From assembly GCA_002189035.1 (NCBI GenBank), contig CM007992.1, forward strand, positions 3,348,001 through 3,412,000: DNA of 64,000 nucleotides, in the 5' to 3' direction. A program made the position numbers and the translations under genes. Under the pieces are notes generated by a model that was given only the letters and a program-made list of their open reading frames with translations, was not told the DNA's origin and did not search any database. Origin of the DNA: Utricularia gibba (taxonomy: Eukaryota; Streptophyta; Magnoliopsida; Lamiales; Lentibulariaceae). Below, one piece after another: positions 25,277-50,359 of the stretch. Each line of letters begins with the position of its first letter. Positions within the stretch are counted from its first letter, which is position 1.

Positions 25277-25668
25277 TGATAGCAGTTTATATCGATGTGT
25301 GAGGGTTGTAGAACAGATATTTTATTTAATGTTATGCAAGAGTACACATATTTATAGTTCTTTAGCAACGGTCGCCTACTTCTAGGGATTAGCCGTTGCT
25401 CACTACGACTTCCAACAATATTGACTTCAGCACGTTGGGCCATATCATCATGTTGGGCCATTTTCTTGAAGTGGATGAGTAGCAAGATCTTTGTTGGTGG
25501 CCCATCTTCTGATCTTGCTGTCCAGTATAATCAGTCCGAGTTGCTGACAGACCTTCTTCTTCTTCCTCCCGTTATCTCTCAACACATTCGTATTTTCCTG
25601 TTCTGGGTCCTCCACATTTCTCACAGTTTGCTGCTGGTTTATCTCATATTCGTCCTCACTCGACATCA
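25277..25668 (-). repeat. 3' LTR of the Copia element
   Basis: 392 bp with TG...CA ends. The polyprotein frame runs into it and stops at 25448. By eye the same sequence as the other LTR. Confidence 0.97.
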
Positions 25669-28600
25669 TTCCTCCTTGAGGAAGAACATGAGATGAGGCA
25701 GCAGTAATCAAGGGATTTCTGCGCAGCCCTAATAGCTCACGGATTTGAGAGAAATGACTTGGAAAGAGGGCTTTGGTGAGAATGTCTGCGGCTTGTCTTT
25801 CTGATGGTAAATACTCCAATTTTATGCTTCCTTCTTTGATGTATTCCCTAAGAACATGGTATTTGATTTTGATATGCTTCGTCTTCCCAAACATGACCGG
25901 ATTTTGAGCAATACTTATGGCTGATTTGCTGTCAATTTTCAGAATGAGTGGCTTGTTAATCTTGATCTGTAAATCTTCACATAATTTCAGGAGCCATTGA
26001 GCGTGATTTGCAGCACAAGCTCCAGCCATGTATTCTGCTTCGGCTGAGGATTGAGCTACTAAGGTCTGTTTTCTGCTGTTCCAAGCAAATGCAGCAGAGC
26101 CCAGAGTAAACAAATAACCAGTGGTGGATTTAAGATCAGATTCGTCACCTGCGAAATCAGAGTCTACGAACCCTTGAAGAGATAGGTCAGTATGCCTTTT
26201 GAAGTATAAACCCATAGTTTTTGTAGCATTCAGATATTTGAATATTTGTTTAGCTATTCTAAGGTGTAAAGCAAGAGGGTGATGCATAAACCTGGATAGA
26301 AACGTTACAGCGAATGTAATGTCCGGTCGAGTTGAGGTGAGGTATAGTAGGGCACCAACAGTCTTCTGATATTCTCGTATGTTCACTGAATTTTCTTGAG
26401 GATCTTGTGGCCCTGAATCGGCAGAATTTAATTCTTTCAGATAGTTGTTTGCCTTGTTCTTCAGGTATGGAGTGAAAGGCGTAGTTGCTTCTTTTGCATT
26501 GTCCATCCCAAATTTTTTTAGTAAGTCTTCAGTGTATTTTTGCTGGCTGAGAAATATAAAATTGGGATCTTGTATTATCTCTAGTCCAAGAATATATCTT
26601 GCTGGCCCTAGATCAGTCAATTCGAACCGTTGTTTGAGCCTTGATTTTTGATCTGCTATCAATGTCTCGTTATTTCCTGTTAGTAAGATGTCATCAACGT
26701 ATAAAGATATGATGACCTTTCCAGTTTGATTGTTGAGGGTGTATAGAGTAGGGTCGTTCTTGCTTCTGATATAACCCATTTGACCAAAGTATGAATCTAT
26801 GGTTGAATACCATTCCTTGGGCGCTTGTTTAAGCCCGTAGAGAGCCTTTTGGAGTTTTAACACCTTATTTGAGCCATCCTTTAGTGTAAAACCGGGAGGA
26901 TTTTCAACATATATGTCTTCTTTCAAGTCTCCATTCAGAAACGCATTCTTTATGTCTAAATGGTGCAGGATCCAACCTTGACTGGCGGCTAATGCGATAA
27001 TCAATTTTATTGTATCCAGACGAGCTACCGGTGCGAAAGTCTCCCAGTAGTCTATACCTTCCTTTTGAAGATATCCTTTTGCAACCAGCCTAGACTTTAA
27101 CTTATTTACTGAGCCGTCTGGATTTAGCTTTGTGCGATAAATCCATTTTAATCCCAACGGTTTAATATTGAGAGGTTTATCCACCGCTGTCCACACTTGA
27201 TGCTCTGCTATGGCCTGTAACTCATTATCCATTGAGGTTTTCCATGCAGGATCATTGAGAGCTTCGAAGGGAGAGGTAGGTTCACAAATCATAAGCGATC
27301 TGTCATAGACTTCAGTAAGAGGACAGTAACCTCTAGCAGGCTCTTCATCTATGAGATGATCGGCTGACTGCAGCATAAAGTGATGTGTATAGGAATTGTA
27401 GTTGTTTGCTGAATCTTCTGAGATATTTTCTGTGTTATCATGTCTTTCAGATATAATTTGCTCAGAGTTTTGGAAGTGAGATGTATTTTCCTCCTGTTCT
27501 TGTAATGAAGAGAATTGATATTCTGATTCTCTGCTTTCTCCATGTTGAGGCTGTTGCGACGAAGTAGGATATGGCATATGATCATTACTTTGCATGTCTT
27601 GATTCCTTTCTGAGTGATGTCTGAAATAATTGTTGTCCTCTGTTTCTGCACCAACAAGATTGGAATTATTCGTAATAGTGGTATTAGTTTCAGGAAGTTC
27701 ATTGACAAGATTCTCTTCGTGCATTTCAGTAAGATTTTCAGATGCATTGATAGGAAATAGGAGTTGCATGTCTCTGGAATATTCAGCTTCGTTTTCAGGA
27801 GTAGAAGAGATATTATGCCAGTCATAGGTCAGACTTTCTTCAACCACAACATCAGCACATCTTTGAACTTCTATACATTGTTTGGATGGAATAAATATTC
27901 TGTAAATTTGAGAGGAGTCCGAATATCCCATAAAGACCCCCATTTGAGCATGATTCTCTAACTTTCTGCGTTTTTCTTTAGATATATGGACATAGCAGAG
28001 GGATCCGAAGATTTTCAGATTCTGTAGATCTGGGACTTTTCCATACCACAGTTCATGTGGAGTTTTTCCTTCAGGTATTCCTTTGGTGGGAAGTCGATTT
28101 AATAGGAATACCGCTGTGTTAACAGCTTCTCCCCAAAAGCGCAATGGTAAGTTGTGTTCCAATAACAAGCAACGAGCCATATTCATAATCGTTTGATTTT
28201 TCCTTTCACAAACACCATTTTGTTGAGGGGTATATGGAACGGTAAACCGATGAACTATACCACTTGCATTGCAGATGTCTCGGAGTTCGGATGATTTGTA
28301 TTCCCCGCCATTGTCTGAATGCAAAGTAAGTATTCTACAATTGCTTTGTAATTCTGCCATCATCTTGAACTGCTTGAAGTATTTAGTCACTTCAGACTTT
28401 TGCTTAAGAAAATATACCCACATATGCTTGGTGTAGTCATCAATAAATAGGACATAGAATTTCTTTCCACCAGGTGTCTCAACATGCATAGGTCCGCATA
28501 CGTCAGAGACTACTAGCTGTAGTTTAGAGTCGGATACTTCAGTACGATTCTTGAATGGCTTCTTGTGCATTTTCCCAAATAGACAGGTGCTGCACGGGAA

Positions 28601-30103
28601 ATTCCAGTCCTTTAATTGAGGTACGCCATGTATAACTCCTTGGGTTTGCGCTGTTCTGAGTTGGCTTGCATGATAGTGACCTAATCTTTTGTGCCATAGG
28701 AAAGAGGTATTTACAGCTGCAAGACAGAAATTACTATTAGTTGTCATGCAGTTAACTGGAAAGAGGCGATTTACCATGGGCACTTTTAGTACAATATTGT
28801 GAGCATAATCCTTCAACAAGCACATATTGTTCTCTATATTCAACTCATATCCACATTCTGCTAGTTGTCCTGCACTCAGTAAGTTGTGAGAAGCCTTTGG
28901 TACATAGAATACATTAGTAATCTTGATGAGTTTTTGTTCAGTTTCCAGACAGATTGATCCAACACCTTCAACTGCAATGAGCGTTCCATCAGCAATGGTG
29001 AGAGTTTTTCCTGATATTGGGGTATATGTTGTGAATATAGACTTGTTGTTGGTCAAGTGATTACTGCAGGCGCAATCAATGAACCAGATTGTGTTGTGTC
29101 GTAGATCAGTGAAATCAGAGAGAGTAGTCTTGCTGCACAAGATATAAACTGAAGACTTCACTTTCATATTTGAATCATCAGGAGATACATGAATTGATTT
29201 GTTTTTTGAATGTTCAGAAGATGCAGCAACAATATAAGTAGAGGCATATGATTTCTTGGTGGGACACACACGCTCCACATGGCCTTTGGTTGAACAGATT
29301 GCGCAATGAGCCTCAGGATGCCAAAAACAGTTCGTTGGAATGTGGTTTTTCTGTGCGCAATATGGGCAAGGAGGATGTGGCCCCTTTTTCTCTTTCTTGA
29401 CAGGTAGGAAACTTGGTGCAGAATATTGTTGTGTCCCATTTTCTCCTTTAGGACCTGCTATAGTAAGTGATGCTTTGAAGGCAGCTTCTAATAGATTTTC
29501 TTCATTGCGAGATTTACGTCTGCTGTCCACATTTTTGAAGTGTTGGAGCAGTTGCTGCAGACTCAGAGTTTCTAGAAATCCGGTTGCTTCCAAGGATTCA
29601 ACGACAGCATCATAATCTGCCGGAGCACTATGAATGATCCTGGCCTTAAGCTTGCGCTCTTCACGGGAGTCAACTTCTTCTCCAAGGCGCTTTAGTTTTT
29701 CCAGGTTTTTGAGAAGTTGTTCTGCATTGGTGGCTACCTCGCCATCTCTAATTTTGAAGTTGTAAACTTCATTCCATAGTTTCTGTATCTCCCTGTGCTT
29801 GTCTTCCTTTGTTTCTTCAAAGGTTTTCTCGAGCATAAGCCACGCCTCTCTTGGAGACCTTCGAGTTATACACCTGTAAGCATCTCCAACCACTGCTGTG
29901 GCTAGCACAGCTGCAGCCTGAATTTCTTTGTCTCTATAAGCTTTTTCAGCTGCAGTTTTTTCTTCAGGTGTTCCTTCAAAAACTGGATCAGTGGCTATTA
30001 TTTTCCAGAGCCCATGAAGTTGGAGATATATCTCCATTTTTGGCGCCCAAATATCGTATTCCTTTCCGTCAAAAATGGGAGGTAATATGTTTGTTACAGA
30101 CAT
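25448..30103 (-). CDS. Copia Gag-Pol polyprotein, intact
   Basis: Encodes the retrotransposon particle and enzymes. The frame is open from further upstream; the ATG at 30103-30101 (MSVTNILPPIFDGKEYDIW) is chosen because it starts the conserved Gag region, giving 1,551 residues. Order: Gag (UBN2-like), two CX2CX4HX4C zinc knuckles (CPYCAQKNHIPTNC and CAICSTKGHVERVC), protease region (WFIDCACSNHLT), integrase HHCC and DDE core (HKRLGHYH, CSTCLFGK, FIDDYTKHMWVYF, LHSDNGGEY, PYTPQQNGVCERKN), reverse transcriptase (ALYGLKQAPKEWY, LYVDDILLTG) and RNase H (SAEAEYMAGACA). The protease Asp is followed by Cys-Ala instead of the usual Ser/Thr-Gly. The last 74 or so codons lie in the 3' LTR. Confidence 0.95.
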   Translation of the reverse strand: MSVTNILPPIFDGKEYDIWAPKMEIYLQLHGLWKIIATDPVFEGTPEEKTAAEKAYRDKEIQAAAVLATAVVGDAYRCITRRSPREAWLMLEKTFEETKEDKHREIQKLWNEVYNFKIRDGEVATNAEQLLKNLEKLKRLGEEVDSREERKLKARIIHSAPADYDAVVESLEATGFLETLSLQQLLQHFKNVDSRRKSRNEENLLEAAFKASLTIAGPKGENGTQQYSAPSFLPVKKEKKGPHPPCPYCAQKNHIPTNCFWHPEAHCAICSTKGHVERVCPTKKSYASTYIVAASSEHSKNKSIHVSPDDSNMKVKSSVYILCSKTTLSDFTDLRHNTIWFIDCACSNHLTNNKSIFTTYTPISGKTLTIADGTLIAVEGVGSICLETEQKLIKITNVFYVPKASHNLLSAGQLAECGYELNIENNMCLLKDYAHNIVLKVPMVNRLFPVNCMTTNSNFCLAAVNTSFLWHKRLGHYHASQLRTAQTQGVIHGVPQLKDWNFPCSTCLFGKMHKKPFKNRTEVSDSKLQLVVSDVCGPMHVETPGGKKFYVLFIDDYTKHMWVYFLKQKSEVTKYFKQFKMMAELQSNCRILTLHSDNGGEYKSSELRDICNASGIVHRFTVPYTPQQNGVCERKNQTIMNMARCLLLEHNLPLRFWGEAVNTAVFLLNRLPTKGIPEGKTPHELWYGKVPDLQNLKIFGSLCYVHISKEKRRKLENHAQMGVFMGYSDSSQIYRIFIPSKQCIEVQRCADVVVEESLTYDWHNISSTPENEAEYSRDMQLLFPINASENLTEMHEENLVNELPETNTTITNNSNLVGAETEDNNYFRHHSERNQDMQSNDHMPYPTSSQQPQHGESRESEYQFSSLQEQEENTSHFQNSEQIISERHDNTENISEDSANNYNSYTHHFMLQSADHLIDEEPARGYCPLTEVYDRSLMICEPTSPFEALNDPAWKTSMDNELQAIAEHQVWTAVDKPLNIKPLGLKWIYRTKLNPDGSVNKLKSRLVAKGYLQKEGIDYWETFAPVARLDTIKLIIALAASQGWILHHLDIKNAFLNGDLKEDIYVENPPGFTLKDGSNKVLKLQKALYGLKQAPKEWYSTIDSYFGQMGYIRSKNDPTLYTLNNQTGKVIISLYVDDILLTGNNETLIADQKSRLKQRFELTDLGPARYILGLEIIQDPNFIFLSQQKYTEDLLKKFGMDNAKEATTPFTPYLKNKANNYLKELNSADSGPQDPQENSVNIREYQKTVGALLYLTSTRPDITFAVTFLSRFMHHPLALHLRIAKQIFKYLNATKTMGLYFKRHTDLSLQGFVDSDFAGDESDLKSTTGYLFTLGSAAFAWNSRKQTLVAQSSAEAEYMAGACAANHAQWLLKLCEDLQIKINKPLILKIDSKSAISIAQNPVMFGKTKHIKIKYHVLREYIKEGSIKLEYLPSERQAADILTKALFPSHFSQIRELLGLRRNPLITAASSHVLPQGGMMSSEDEYEINQQQTVRNVEDPEQENTNVLRDNGRKKKKVCQQLGLIILDSKIRRWATNKDLATHPLQENGPT

Positions 30104-30235
30104 GATGACACTCTTTTGAGAACCTGCGATAGAATATAGAGTAAGGTAAGAAGCCTTTAGATGTAGTGTTTGAGTGGCAAACCGTGTTTGGAAGGATAGC
30201 AATGTTGAGCTGCTTGTTTCACGTCGGGTTCACCA

Positions 30236-41187: not shown

Positions 41188-41871
41188 TCAGGCGTCGGTG
41201 GGGAGCTCCAGCCGGCAACAGGGGCAGCTATGGCCGACGCTGAGCCACTTTGTGATGCATTCTTTGTGGAAGAAATGTCGGCACGGCATCTCGAAGCCCT
41301 CAGCGTCATCAGCATACTCCTCCAGGCAGATGGGGCAGGAATCCATGATCGAAGACGCCGCCGTCGTGCTCTTCAGCGCCGCCGCAATGGCCGACTCCTC
41401 CGCCCTCACCGTCACCACGGCATCGTCGTCCATGGACTGCAGCACGGTCTCCGTCTCGGAATCCACGTTGAGATCAACGCCGATGCGGTAGTTGAGCCAG
41501 AAGCGGTTACAGTTGGGGTGCAAGTTCCGTATTGCGCCGGAGCATGAGTAGCAGATATGACAAATTAGGAATTCCTGGACGTACAGGGGTACATGGGCAT
41601 CCCACGCCTCCCATTCTTCTATGCGGCGCCTGATGGCGGGTCCGATGGCCGCGGTTGTTGGGTCGCTGCGCTTCACGATGATGGATAACTCCAGCGGCGC
41701 CAGACGGACGGAACTGAGGATGGTGCCCATGCTCCGCACGGAGGATCGGATGATGATGCCGAGGCTGACCTCCACGTCATCAGAGCTCTCTCCGGTACGG
41801 CGGAAGGCGAAGCTTTCTTGCGCGGAGAAGGAGACCGAGTCTTCGCCGTTGGAGAAGAGGATCTCGTTCAT
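41188..41871 (-). CDS. RING-H2 E3 ubiquitin ligase, unit A copy
   Basis: Single exon, 227 residues. The C-terminal RING-H2 finger (C3H2C3) reads CPICLEEY, then CRHFFHKECITKWL, then CPCC, at about residues 173-220. It should recruit an E2 enzyme for substrate ubiquitination. The N-terminal 170 residues (MNEILFSNGEDSVSFSAQES and following) show no domain I know; an acidic stretch TETVLQSMDDDAVV precedes the finger. No signal peptide or membrane segment is seen. The unit B copy is closely related, and this one is the intact frame. Confidence 0.88.
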   Translation of the reverse strand: MNEILFSNGEDSVSFSAQESFAFRRTGESSDDVEVSLGIIIRSSVRSMGTILSSVRLAPLELSIIVKRSDPTTAAIGPAIRRRIEEWEAWDAHVPLYVQEFLICHICYSCSGAIRNLHPNCNRFWLNYRIGVDLNVDSETETVLQSMDDDAVVTVRAEESAIAAALKSTTAASSIMDSCPICLEEYADDAEGFEMPCRHFFHKECITKWLSVGHSCPCCRLELPTDA

Positions 41872-42682
41872 GCTTCTTATCTTCTTCTGTTCACAGTATG
41901 CATAATGCGGGAGACTTGAGCGCTTTTATAACAACAAGAAGAAGAAGATATGGAAACAAATCAAGTATTATGGAAACAATTAGTTATAAGATTGTGATTA
42001 CACCTTTTTAATCTAAGTAAATCTAGTTTTGTTGAGATTAATAAATAAAAAAATATTTTTAGATAAAAAAGTATATCCTTGCATTATAATAATGGAAATT
42101 AAAACTGTTTATATCAAAAAATAGTGAGAATTGAATGTACAATTTTCATTTAATATAGGAGGTGTTTTGTTTGTTGAGGTAATTTTGTTTAATTTTATAA
42201 ATTTTTAATTTTTAGATGTTTTATAGTAATATTAGAAATTCATATTCCGTAATTAATTTCAACGATTATTAATTTTTTTGAATTTTTGTTTCAAAAATTA
42301 AATAAAACATTAATTAAAAAATTATATTATTAACTTGTTATTTATTCTAAAAATATATGTATATTATAACATTAAATTTTATAATATTATTTTTTATTAA
42401 AATTTATTATATAATTTTATATTATATTATAAAACAATTTTACAATTTTAAATTGATTACGTTTACATAATTTTTATTATGATAAATAGTTCGAAATTCT
42501 AAAATAATGCGGCTGGAGCGAAAGGGAAGCCGAGCCGAGTCAAACCGCTCAGCTTGACTAACTTGCCTGTTTAATCCACGTGGCTTCAATTTATCCAATC
42601 ATAAAATTCTCTCTCACGCAGATCACACGCACCAAAAATTAAAATCTCAAGAACAAGAAAGTTGATTTGGAATGATCTGGAA

Positions 42683-46281: not shown

Positions 46282-46964
46282 TCAGGTGTCGGTGGGGAGC
46301 TCCAGGCGGCAACAGGGGCAGCTATGGCCAACGCTGAGCCACTTTGTGATGCATTCTTTGTGGAAGAAATGTCGGCACGGCATCTCGAAGCCCTCGGCGT
46401 CATCAGCATACTCCTCCAAGCAGATGGGGCAGGAATCCATGATCGAAGACGCCGCCGTCGTGCTCTTCAGCGCCGCCGCAATGGCCGACTCCTCCGCCCT
46501 CACCATCACCACGGCATCGTCGTCCATGGACTGCAGCACGGTCTCCGTCTCGAAATCCACGTTGAGATCAATGCCGATGCAGTAGTTGAGACGGACGCGG
46601 TTACAGTTGGGGCGCACGCTGCCTATTGCGCCGGAACATGAGTACCGGATCTGAGAGATTAGGAATTCCCGGACGGGCAGGGGATATGGACATCCCACGC
46701 CTCCCATTCTTCTAGGCGGCGCCTGATGACGGGTCCGATGACCGCGGTTGTTGGGTCGCTGCGCTTCACGGTGAAGGATAACTCCAGCGGCGCCGGATGG
46801 ATGTTACTGTGGATGGTGCCCATTTGCCACAGCGAGGATCGGATGAGGAATCCGAGCTTGACCACGACGTGATCGGAGCTCTCTCCGCTACGGCTGAAGG
46901 CGAAGCTTTGTTGCGTGGAGAAGGTGAGCGAGTCTTCGCCGTTGGACAAGAGGATCTCGTTCAT
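46282..46964 (-). CDS. RING-H2 E3 ubiquitin ligase, unit B copy, one frameshift
   Basis: Paralog of the gene at 41188-41871. The RING-H2 finger is unchanged (CPICLEEY, CRHFFHKECITKWL, CPCC). The first part is open from MNEILLSNGEDS to DVHIPCP and the second from PVREFLI onward in another frame. Compared with copy A, one base is missing here; adding one G to the run 46680-46683 restores DVHIPLPVREFLI against DAHVPLYVQEFLI and a full 227 residues. It is either a broken duplicate or, more likely, a consensus error. Confidence 0.82.
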
Positions 46965-47833
46965 GCTTCTTCTCTTCGTCTGTTCACAGTATGCACAACG
47001 CGGGAGACTTGAGGGCTTTTATAACAAGAAGAAGAAGAAGATATGGAAACAAATCAAGTATTATGGAAACAATTAGTTATAAGATTGTGATTATACCTTT
47101 TTAATCTAATTATTTTATTTTATTCAGTTATGTAATATTTTATATAGTATAAATGTTATTCAAATTTTATATTCAAAATTATGTATATCTAGTCTTTTCA
47201 AGAATAATAAATAAAAATATTTGTTGATAAAAAAATATATCTTACATTATAGTAATGGAGATTAAAAATGTTTGATATAAAAAATAGTGGGAATTGAATG
47301 CACAATTTTCGTTTATCCTATTCTATATTATTAATTTTTTGAAATAATTATGTTTAATTTTTAATTATTCTATAATAAAATAAGACATTCAGATTCTATT
47401 ATTAACTTTATAAATTATTGAATTTTTTTCAAAGATAACATAACAGAATAATTATTAAAATTATATTTCTTATTTTTTATTTATTCTAAAAATATATTTA
47501 TATGATAATATAATTTAATATTTCAAAATGTATATTGTATATTTTATTAAACTTTATTATAATATGTTATACGAAAAATCAGTTTTAGAATTTCAAGTTG
47601 ATTTTATTCATATAGTTTTAGCTAATATAATGATACGTAGTTGGAAATTCTAAAATAATGTGGCTGGAGCGAAAGGGAAGCCGAGCCGAGTCAAACGGCT
47701 CAGTTTGACTGACTTGCCTGTTTAATCCACGTGGCTTCAATTTGTCCAATCATAAAATTCTCTCTCAAGCAGATCACATGCACCAAACATCAAAATCTCA
47801 AGAACAAGAAAGTTGATTTGGAATGATCTGGAA

Positions 47834-48373: not shown

Positions 48374-50332
48374 TTATCGCAGTGCCATTTCTTTTTGAAT
48401 AGCCGATTCCGGCTGCACTTGTAACCGCAGTTCAAGAGCCATGGTGTGGACTAAGCCCTCTGGATTGGAGGTAACCCACAGGTCACCATGCATTAGCTGT
48501 TCATTGCAATAAAATGCAATGGTTATTGCATAGAAAGTGCATGTAGAGGCAGCACTACTTGTGAAAAAAGAATTTGATAGTAGAAGCTGAACCTGAACAA
48601 GCTTTCTGTTAGCACCAAACCTCATGCTTTTCCTGAAATCCAACCGACTGAACGATGGTACATCTTTTTGTCGATGAGGACCAGAGTGGCAGATAGCCAT
48701 GTCGAACCGGACGAATGTGAAAGCATTGGATGGACTTTTTCCTTCATGGCAACATTCTTGTATGTTCTTTTTGCAACTGTGGCATGCTGGATAGACATGT
48801 AGAATATGGTAACTCCCTATTTTGCTTGCATTTATGAAGTTTCCAACGTTGTGCAGAATGACTTGAAACACTCTCTTTTCATCTCCGATTGCAGGATTTT
48901 GCAAGGAGTTGTCGACTCTGATTTCGAATTCACACCCTCTGCAAGCAGAGATGCACTTGAAGATGCAGGCTGCTTCTTTAATGGTGGAATGTAGCTGAAA
49001 AGGCTTGATATCCAATGATAATTTTCCACTTTTTTTTGCTGAAGTAGCATCCATTGCATCTCTTATCGAAGTTGAAATAGCATTACAAGCTTTAAACATC
49101 GCATCAACAACCAGCCGTTGACTGTTTGTGAACTTGAAATCCTGCAATGAGGATGAAAGACCAAGAACAGAGTCCACTGATTTTTTTAAACACTTAGTCA
49201 GTGCCATTTGACATGCCTTCTTTACTTGAGTAGCCTTCACTGCATCCTCTTTTTCTTCCTGCAGGGCGCTGTTTTGTGCAATGAGCTTTTCCTGTATGTT
49301 TTTCAGCTCTTCTAAGATCCAGGCATGGGAAAGAGCTACCGCCACTTGATCTGCAATTGCCTTCACAATGTCGAGCTCCTCTTCGCTCCATGATCGGCTC
49401 CGCCCATTTTTATGCACCAAAGTGATGATGGCGGTGCAATCAGGAACCATCTCATGAGTCCCACCATTGAAATCAGACACCCTTAACAGTGGCACTCCTA
49501 CAGCAGCTACACACCCCACCTCACCTCTCCCTCTCCCTCTGCTTCTATCAACACCAAGAGGTGATTCTGGATTCAGAATCTTGACTCCATTGATCCCCTC
49601 GATCGCTCTAACATCCGGATCATCGATAGGGATGCGCAACTTATGCCATATTGACTTGCCTCCTCCACTCAACTCATGAATCAGCTCCATTTCAGTTTTT
49701 GCTGCATTGGGCATCCACACTGCGCAGGTCTCCACTTCCAGGGCCTTGGGTAGCTCAACCAGTGTGGTCTGCAATATAGTATGCCGATCAAGGGACTTGC
49801 GAATCTCTCTTGTCAAAATTCTGAATTGCAACGAAGCTTCTGTCTGCTTCTTTATAACTGTGATCTCTCTCTGAAGCTCCCTGGTTTTCTTTCTCAGCAT
49901 AAACTCCCTGACGGTGACCTTAAGCAGCATGGGGATGAAGGACAGAAGGGATACAACCGTGGCGGAGGAAACCAGAGCAGTGAGGCACTTGAAAATGGTG
50001 ACAGCAACCATGAGCTGAAAAGAGTGTGATCGATAGCTCCAGAAGCTGAGGAAATTGTTCATTCCACATAAGACAATGAATGCAATGAACTGCACCAGCG
50101 CCAACTTAAACTTCATAGCAGAACAGCTAACAAAGAATATCAGCTCAATGAGAATCGCAAAGTAAGCTACAGCAATCAGCAAATCACTGACTCTTCTGAC
50201 CTCCATGATAATGTCAATGAACAAGAATCGCTCCTCATCGCAGTTACAGTGAGAACCATCCTCATCAGATGCCATTCCTTCACCAAATAAAGACAAAAGC
50301 AACACCACCCAAGATGCCAGTGCTTTCCCCAT
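48374..50332 (-). CDS. Divergent subfamily II ethylene receptor without receiver domain
   Basis: ETR2/EIN4/ERS2-type protein, in its family an ER-membrane negative regulator of ethylene signalling with CTR1. Start MGKALASWVV chosen (50332), since ETR2-type proteins begin there; nine upstream codons are also open. An in-frame intron (about 48594-48499) separates RKLVQ from LMHGDLWV. After a leader segment and CNC (disulfide cysteines) come three membrane helices, then a GAF domain (SLDRHTILQTTLVEL) and a degenerate kinase region. Differences: L36 for ETR1 Pro36 (AYFAILIELIFF), Asn for the copper ligand His69 (LCGMNNFL), Asp where kinases have the H-box His (VDSVLG), and an end at QKEMALR with no receiver domain. 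About 620 residues after splicing. The long frame without stops argues it is or was recently functional. Confidence 0.87.
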   Translation of the reverse strand: MGKALASWVVLLLSLFGEGMASDEDGSHCNCDEERFLFIDIIMEVRRVSDLLIAVAYFAILIELIFFVSCSAMKFKLALVQFIAFIVLCGMNNFLSFWSYRSHSFQLMVAVTIFKCLTALVSSATVVSLLSFIPMLLKVTVREFMLRKKTRELQREITVIKKQTEASLQFRILTREIRKSLDRHTILQTTLVELPKALEVETCAVWMPNAAKTEMELIHELSGGGKSIWHKLRIPIDDPDVRAIEGINGVKILNPESPLGVDRSRGRGRGEVGCVAAVGVPLLRVSDFNGGTHEMVPDCTAIITLVHKNGRSRSWSEEELDIVKAIADQVAVALSHAWILEELKNIQEKLIAQNSALQEEKEDAVKATQVKKACQMALTKCLKKSVDSVLGLSSSLQDFKFTNSQRLVVDAMFKACNAISTSIRDAMDATSAKKSGKLSLDIKPFQLHSTIKEAACIFKCISACRGCEFEIRVDNSLQNPAIGDEKRVFQVILHNVGNFINASKIGSYHILHVYPACHSCKKNIQECCHEGKSPSNAFTFVRFDMAICHSGPHRQKDVPSFSRLDFRKSMRFGANRKLVQVQLLLSNSFFTSSAASTCTFYAITIAFYCNEQLMHGDLWVTSNPEGLVHTMALELRLQVQPESAIQKEMALR

Positions 50333-50359
50333 TGGTCTCACATCCAACACTTCATCCAA

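Follow-up and report, generated by a model that had tools for sequence, protein, structure and literature searches.

Within a 64,000 nt window of the Utricularia gibba genome (contig CM007992.1, positions 3,348,001 to 3,412,000) lies a minus-strand gene, hereafter W, that has the architecture of an ethylene receptor and departs from the family at residues of the ethylene-binding site. Such a locus raises the question of whether it is a decaying copy or a maintained receptor that no longer senses its ligand, and, if the latter, what it might do.

Gene structure and relatives of W

A sequence-only reading of this region had described a long, clean frame, and this is borne out by a minus-strand open frame at 50359–48374 (661 codons, stop to stop) with Pfam matches to ETR1_N (E = 2e-20) and GAF (E = 9e-11). 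That single frame ran straight through an intron, as the intron is 96 nt long and contains no in-frame stop. Comparison with paralogs places it at 48497–48592, correcting the earlier boundaries of 48499–48594, and W (50332–48374) is thus an intact gene of two exons with a spliced product of 620 residues. Its features are as follows:

48593–50332, minus strand: exon 1, 580 codons, supported by the frame, Pfam matches and paralog alignment; encodes a signal-like hydrophobic segment, a three-helix ethylene-binding domain, a GAF domain and a degenerate histidine-kinase region
48497–48592, minus strand: intron, 96 nt, GT..AG, with position and boundary bases as in paralogs A and B
48374–48496, minus strand: exon 2, 40 codons and a stop codon; completes the kinase-like region, receiver absent
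49913–50191, minus strand: ethylene-binding domain, residues 48–140 (Pfam ETR1_N, 72.9 bits)
49331–49789, minus strand: GAF domain, residues 182–334 (Pfam GAF, 42.6 bits)
50150–50152, minus strand: Leu61 at ETR1 Pro36, codon CTC
50066–50068, minus strand: Cys89, the retained copper ligand ETR1 Cys65, codon TGT
50057–50059, minus strand: Asn92 at ETR1 Thr68, codon AAC
50054–50056, minus strand: Asn93 at copper ligand ETR1 His69, codon AAT
49193–49195, minus strand: Lys380 at the phospho-accepting H-box His
49172–49174, minus strand: Asp387 at the second His of the H-box ('PMH' motif)

A search of the whole genome (100.09 Mb, 516 contigs) identified four genes that encode an ETR1_N membrane domain: W itself on contig C4, A (C4:456 kb), B (C413:4.48 Mb) and an ETR1-type gene on C98 (852–860 kb, L023), which carries a receiver and is the sole subfamily I receptor found. 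No ERS1-type gene was recovered by this search. The closest relatives of W within the genome are A and B, at 56–57 % protein identity, which aligns it, as compared amongst U. gibba genes only, with subfamily II (the ETR2/EIN4/ERS2 group). W resembles this subfamily in domain order, in the CNC motif of its N-terminal disulfide cysteines, GAF domain and degenerate kinase motifs, and in an extra N-terminal hydrophobic segment (ALASWVVLLLSLFGEGMAS, mean hydropathy 1.57) that is also present in A and B and is missing from the ETR1-type gene. The single intron has the same place and boundaries in all three, with the splice junction (KLVQ/LMHGD) and start region matching as well. Beyond the dimer cysteines, W retains the three membrane helices (PF25487, 72.9–76.7 bits against a cut-off of 27), the coiled coil, a GAF domain and, C-terminal to it, a histidine-kinase-like region, the last recognized by alignment and structural model, with the HisKA Pfam profile leaving the W protein unmatched. 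An AlphaFold2 model of moderate confidence (mean pLDDT 76, pTM 0.45) contains the helices, coiled coil and GAF domain that would be expected, with histidine kinases and phytochromes as the top Foldseek matches in the PDB; it adds little beyond making the fold plausible. Differences from A and B comprise the loss of Pro36, Thr68, His69 and the receiver. The receiver, already reported missing by the sequence-only reading, sits on the second exon in A and B, whilst W has no receiver homology past its C-terminus, and inspection of the sequence 3′ of the stop revealed no homologous frame that might be a remnant.

With regard to genomic setting, the A and B regions are collinear with each other, as expected from genome duplication, whilst the W region shows no collinearity with either over 20 kb each side, except for the receptor itself. 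An Aux/IAA gene lies approximately 2 kb upstream of W (window 51.9–52.5 kb, minus strand). As Arabidopsis ETR2 and EIN4 are also situated near IAA genes, this neighbourhood may be ancestral. Elsewhere in the window is a Copia LTR element (25451–30229, minus strand) with one apparently unbroken 1593-aa frame containing gag, integrase and reverse-transcriptase domains. A pair of similar RING-H2 finger genes (41191–41925 and 46285–47018, both minus strand), separated by about 5 kb and facing the same way, seems to be a tandem duplicate; the second gene is covered by two overlapping frames and may contain an intron or frameshift. The genome additionally encodes EIN3-, RTE1- and CTR1/EDR1-type genes, with CTR1 not separated from EDR1.

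The kinase-like region calls for separate comment. The H-box His had been read as Asp; the residue aligned with the phospho-accepting His is in fact Lys380, and it is the second His at which Asp387 stands. Ser and Asn occupy the phospho-accepting position in A and B, respectively, so its loss in W is not special. The VGN of the N-box is kept in W, and its Asn is lost in both A and B (L005, L006), themselves intact genes. A kinase-dead state is common amongst subfamily II receptors, and there is nothing unusual in a receptor without a receiver, ERS1 and ERS2 being examples. Activation of CTR1 is moreover thought not to depend on phosphorelay (PMC3485614). The missing H-box His and receiver were consequently rejected as marks of new function, a matter on which they are silent.

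Losses at the ethylene-binding site

In the alignment of the species' receptors, the three key assignments made for the membrane domain all hold: Leu at Pro36, Asn at His69 and a retained Cys65. At position 36, W has CTC in place of CCC or CCA, and at positions 68–69 it has AAC AAT for ACT CAT. Further changes at conserved sites (ETR1 numbering) are Ser34Ala, Pro50Lys, Trp53Leu and Ala102Val. By comparison, Pro36, Cys65, His69, Thr68, Ser34 and Ala102 are kept by all three other U. gibba receptors. Not everything has been altered, as Tyr32, Ile35 and Ile62, named in the literature as pocket residues, are unchanged, and Lys91, Ser98 and Thr101 are likewise retained.

The depth of conservation at these sites was gauged using bacterial homologs, for which a scan seeded with the plant alignment returned nothing and a hand-made guide alignment returned 80 sequences. 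His69, Cys65 and Ala102 are present in 80/80 and Thr68 in 76/80, with His69 and Thr68 lying outside the search patterns. Pro36 occurs in 79/80, a figure raised by the search itself, since the patterns contain [SL]IP and FGAF and so bias the conservation of both Ser34 and Pro36 upward. Across the 26 membrane columns conserved in at least 95 % of these homologs, W is changed at seven, A at one and B at two. Within W, changes at these deep columns (7/26) are not clearly rarer than at the other membrane columns where A and B agree (23/63), indicating that the special protection of deeply conserved sites is gone.

Published work on other receptors gives these losses their meaning. Copper is held by Cys65 and His69 (PMC12744750; PMC6586836), and of this pair W keeps the Cys and has Asn for the His. 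H69A lowers the binding of ethylene by ETR1, an effect on binding as distinct from signalling (cited in PMC8879215). Pro36Leu is the tomato Never-ripe change, which renders the plant insensitive to ethylene (PMC6727826), and it occurs in squash CpETR1A as well (PMC8012379). By analogy with this mutagenesis, W should not bind ethylene, as had been predicted, and on its residues it is classed as a homolog and variant of the receptor family and not as an ethylene-binding receptor.

Constraint along the W branch

Selection was assessed with our own implementation of a codon model on a three-branch tree of W, A and B. The W branch has an omega of 0.38, modestly above the 0.25 of A/B (P = 0.03 for the difference), and an omega of 1 is rejected for W overall (P = 2e-12); this branch also spans time before the A/B split, its average cannot date the losses, and constraint after the last site loss is beyond what it can prove. 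By region, and again relative to an omega of 1, values are 0.23 for the membrane helices (P = 2e-6), 0.30 for the coil and GAF (residues 149–345; P = 1e-6) and 0.52 for the kinase-like part (P = 0.003). The deep columns are without extra protection, yet the protein as a whole is still constrained. At sites common to the other three receptors, W carries 49 changes, compared with 28 and 36 on the paralog paths of A and B, respectively.

The 620 codons of W are free of stops and its splice sites are conserved. Under a neutral-decay calculation, in which 3.2 % of neutral changes produce a stop and frameshifts are ignored, the probability of an open frame has fallen to 0.05 once 0.15 neutral changes have accumulated per codon, or approximately 7 % of the branch. 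Over the same 0.15 changes, 24 deep columns collect five or more hits with a probability of 0.13. However long the neutral decay is taken to last, the joint probability of an open frame and five deep-site losses never exceeds 0.007, and with so low a peak the losses most likely built up whilst the gene was still kept. Neither a broken frame nor a dN/dS near 1, the marks of a pseudogene, was found, and the alternative of a decaying copy with neutral dN/dS is rejected by the intact frame together with the branch omega. The sequence of W, then, is not what one would expect of a copy in neutral decay.

Candidate roles for a receptor probably released from ethylene

The anatomy of W, its lost sites and the constraint along its branch can be read directly from the genome. 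The explanation that accommodates them best, to which we give about an even chance, is that W is a maintained subfamily II-type receptor freed from ethylene and copper binding that works as a constitutive brake or as a complex partner. Ethylene-free receptors keep CTR1 active, and ethylene switches receptors off. A receptor unable to bind ethylene and yet signalling would hence stay on. If W cannot bind ethylene, as mutants of other plants imply, and if it is expressed and CTR1-competent, it would keep CTR1 active with or without ethylene, signalling either alone or inside mixed receptor clusters. It could in this manner set ethylene sensitivity by braking the pathway in part and at all times, with the other three receptors sensing the hormone. 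Such a role would require a working output half, which is predicted for W. Pro50Lys, Trp53Leu, Thr68Asn and Ala102Val could leave the membrane domain signalling-inactive, and the loss of the receiver, along with the fast-evolving kinase-like region, could weaken contact with CTR1. A strongly active gene of the Never-ripe type should, furthermore, confer dominant insensitivity, which would be a burden on the plant if the gene were neither weakly expressed nor of use.

The main rival is a decoy: a non-binding, non-signalling subunit, acting as a scaffold without output of its own, that tunes receptor clusters or CTR1 pools via its GAF domain and coiled coil. Higher-order receptor complexes are mediated by GAF domains (PMC3485614), and in W the coil and GAF are constrained whilst the deep membrane columns have lost their protection, the receiver is absent and HisKA is unmatched. 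Set against this, the membrane helices are constrained as much as any part, and the signalling portion of helices 2 and 3 is largely retained (Lys91, Ser98, Thr101); we regard this account as possible but rather unlikely. Ranked just after it, and similarly improbable, is a gene on its way out, which was long constrained, is now relaxed or silent and has lost its copper site recently. The elevated omega of W relative to its paralogs, its excess of changes at commonly held sites and its missing receiver are in keeping with such a history, and the open frame, sound splice sites and low joint neutral probability speak against it. Relative to the paralog codons, moreover, Pro50Lys involves three base changes, and Thr68Asn and Ser34Ala two each, which favours an older loss.

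That a ligand is still sensed, with Asn69, Asn68 and Cys65 making up a modified metal site that differs in affinity or in the ligand it prefers, would draw on the retained pocket neighbours (Cys65, Tyr32, Ile35 and Ile62) and on the replacement of Thr-His by two adjacent Asn. We deem this highly improbable: Asn is a poor ligand for Cu(I), and both Pro36Leu, which by itself makes tomato insensitive (PMC6727826), and H69A, which weakens binding in ETR1 (PMC8879215), tell against it. Least credible of all, to the point of being negligible, is a sequencing or assembly error. A single assembly is the source of the W sequence; nonetheless, the substitutions are several and separate within an open frame, W is a single distinct locus with 57 % protein identity to its paralogs, and long-read mistakes are mostly indels that would break the frame. 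W is a real and unusual gene, better regarded as such than as a decaying copy, with its brake function a prediction from sequence.

The preferred reading of a maintained receptor released from ethylene can be set beside known systems. W has the identical position-36 change to tomato Never-ripe (SlETR3 Pro36Leu), from which loss of ethylene sensing is expected, and Arabidopsis etr2-1 is the equivalent Pro-to-Leu change. Those are single mutations in wild-type receptors, whereas W is natural, long diverged, altered at several pocket positions and known from sequence. A looser likeness is to the RetS-type pseudo-sensor kinases of Pseudomonas, as Foldseek places the kinase-like part of W on RetS/GacS kinase regions. 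RetS is a brake working by direct partnering; the two share no kinship beyond the histidine-kinase fold, with sensor and pathway differing, and the parallel is one of analogy.

A bolder version of the brake reading, in which a selected, non-binding receptor has become fixed in an aquatic carnivore and holds CTR1 active, making baseline insensitivity (the Never-ripe state) a normal part of the plant, is put forward tentatively, and we think it more doubtful than the general proposal. A literature search found nothing on ethylene receptors in Utricularia. The Utricularia vulgaris transcriptome contains a duplicated EIN2 (PMC4358910), which hints, circumstantially, at a reworking of the ethylene pathway within Utricularia. 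Given the submerged habit of U. gibba, gas-phase ethylene sensing may have been reset. Dominant insensitive receptors are familiar as mutants from the laboratory or from breeding. If the reading is correct, a natural receptor with the Never-ripe residue and without the copper His, under purifying selection, would mean that a receptor can serve a normal function without sensing, and W would offer a ready test of whether evolution can uncouple ethylene binding, receptor output and the formation of clusters from one another.
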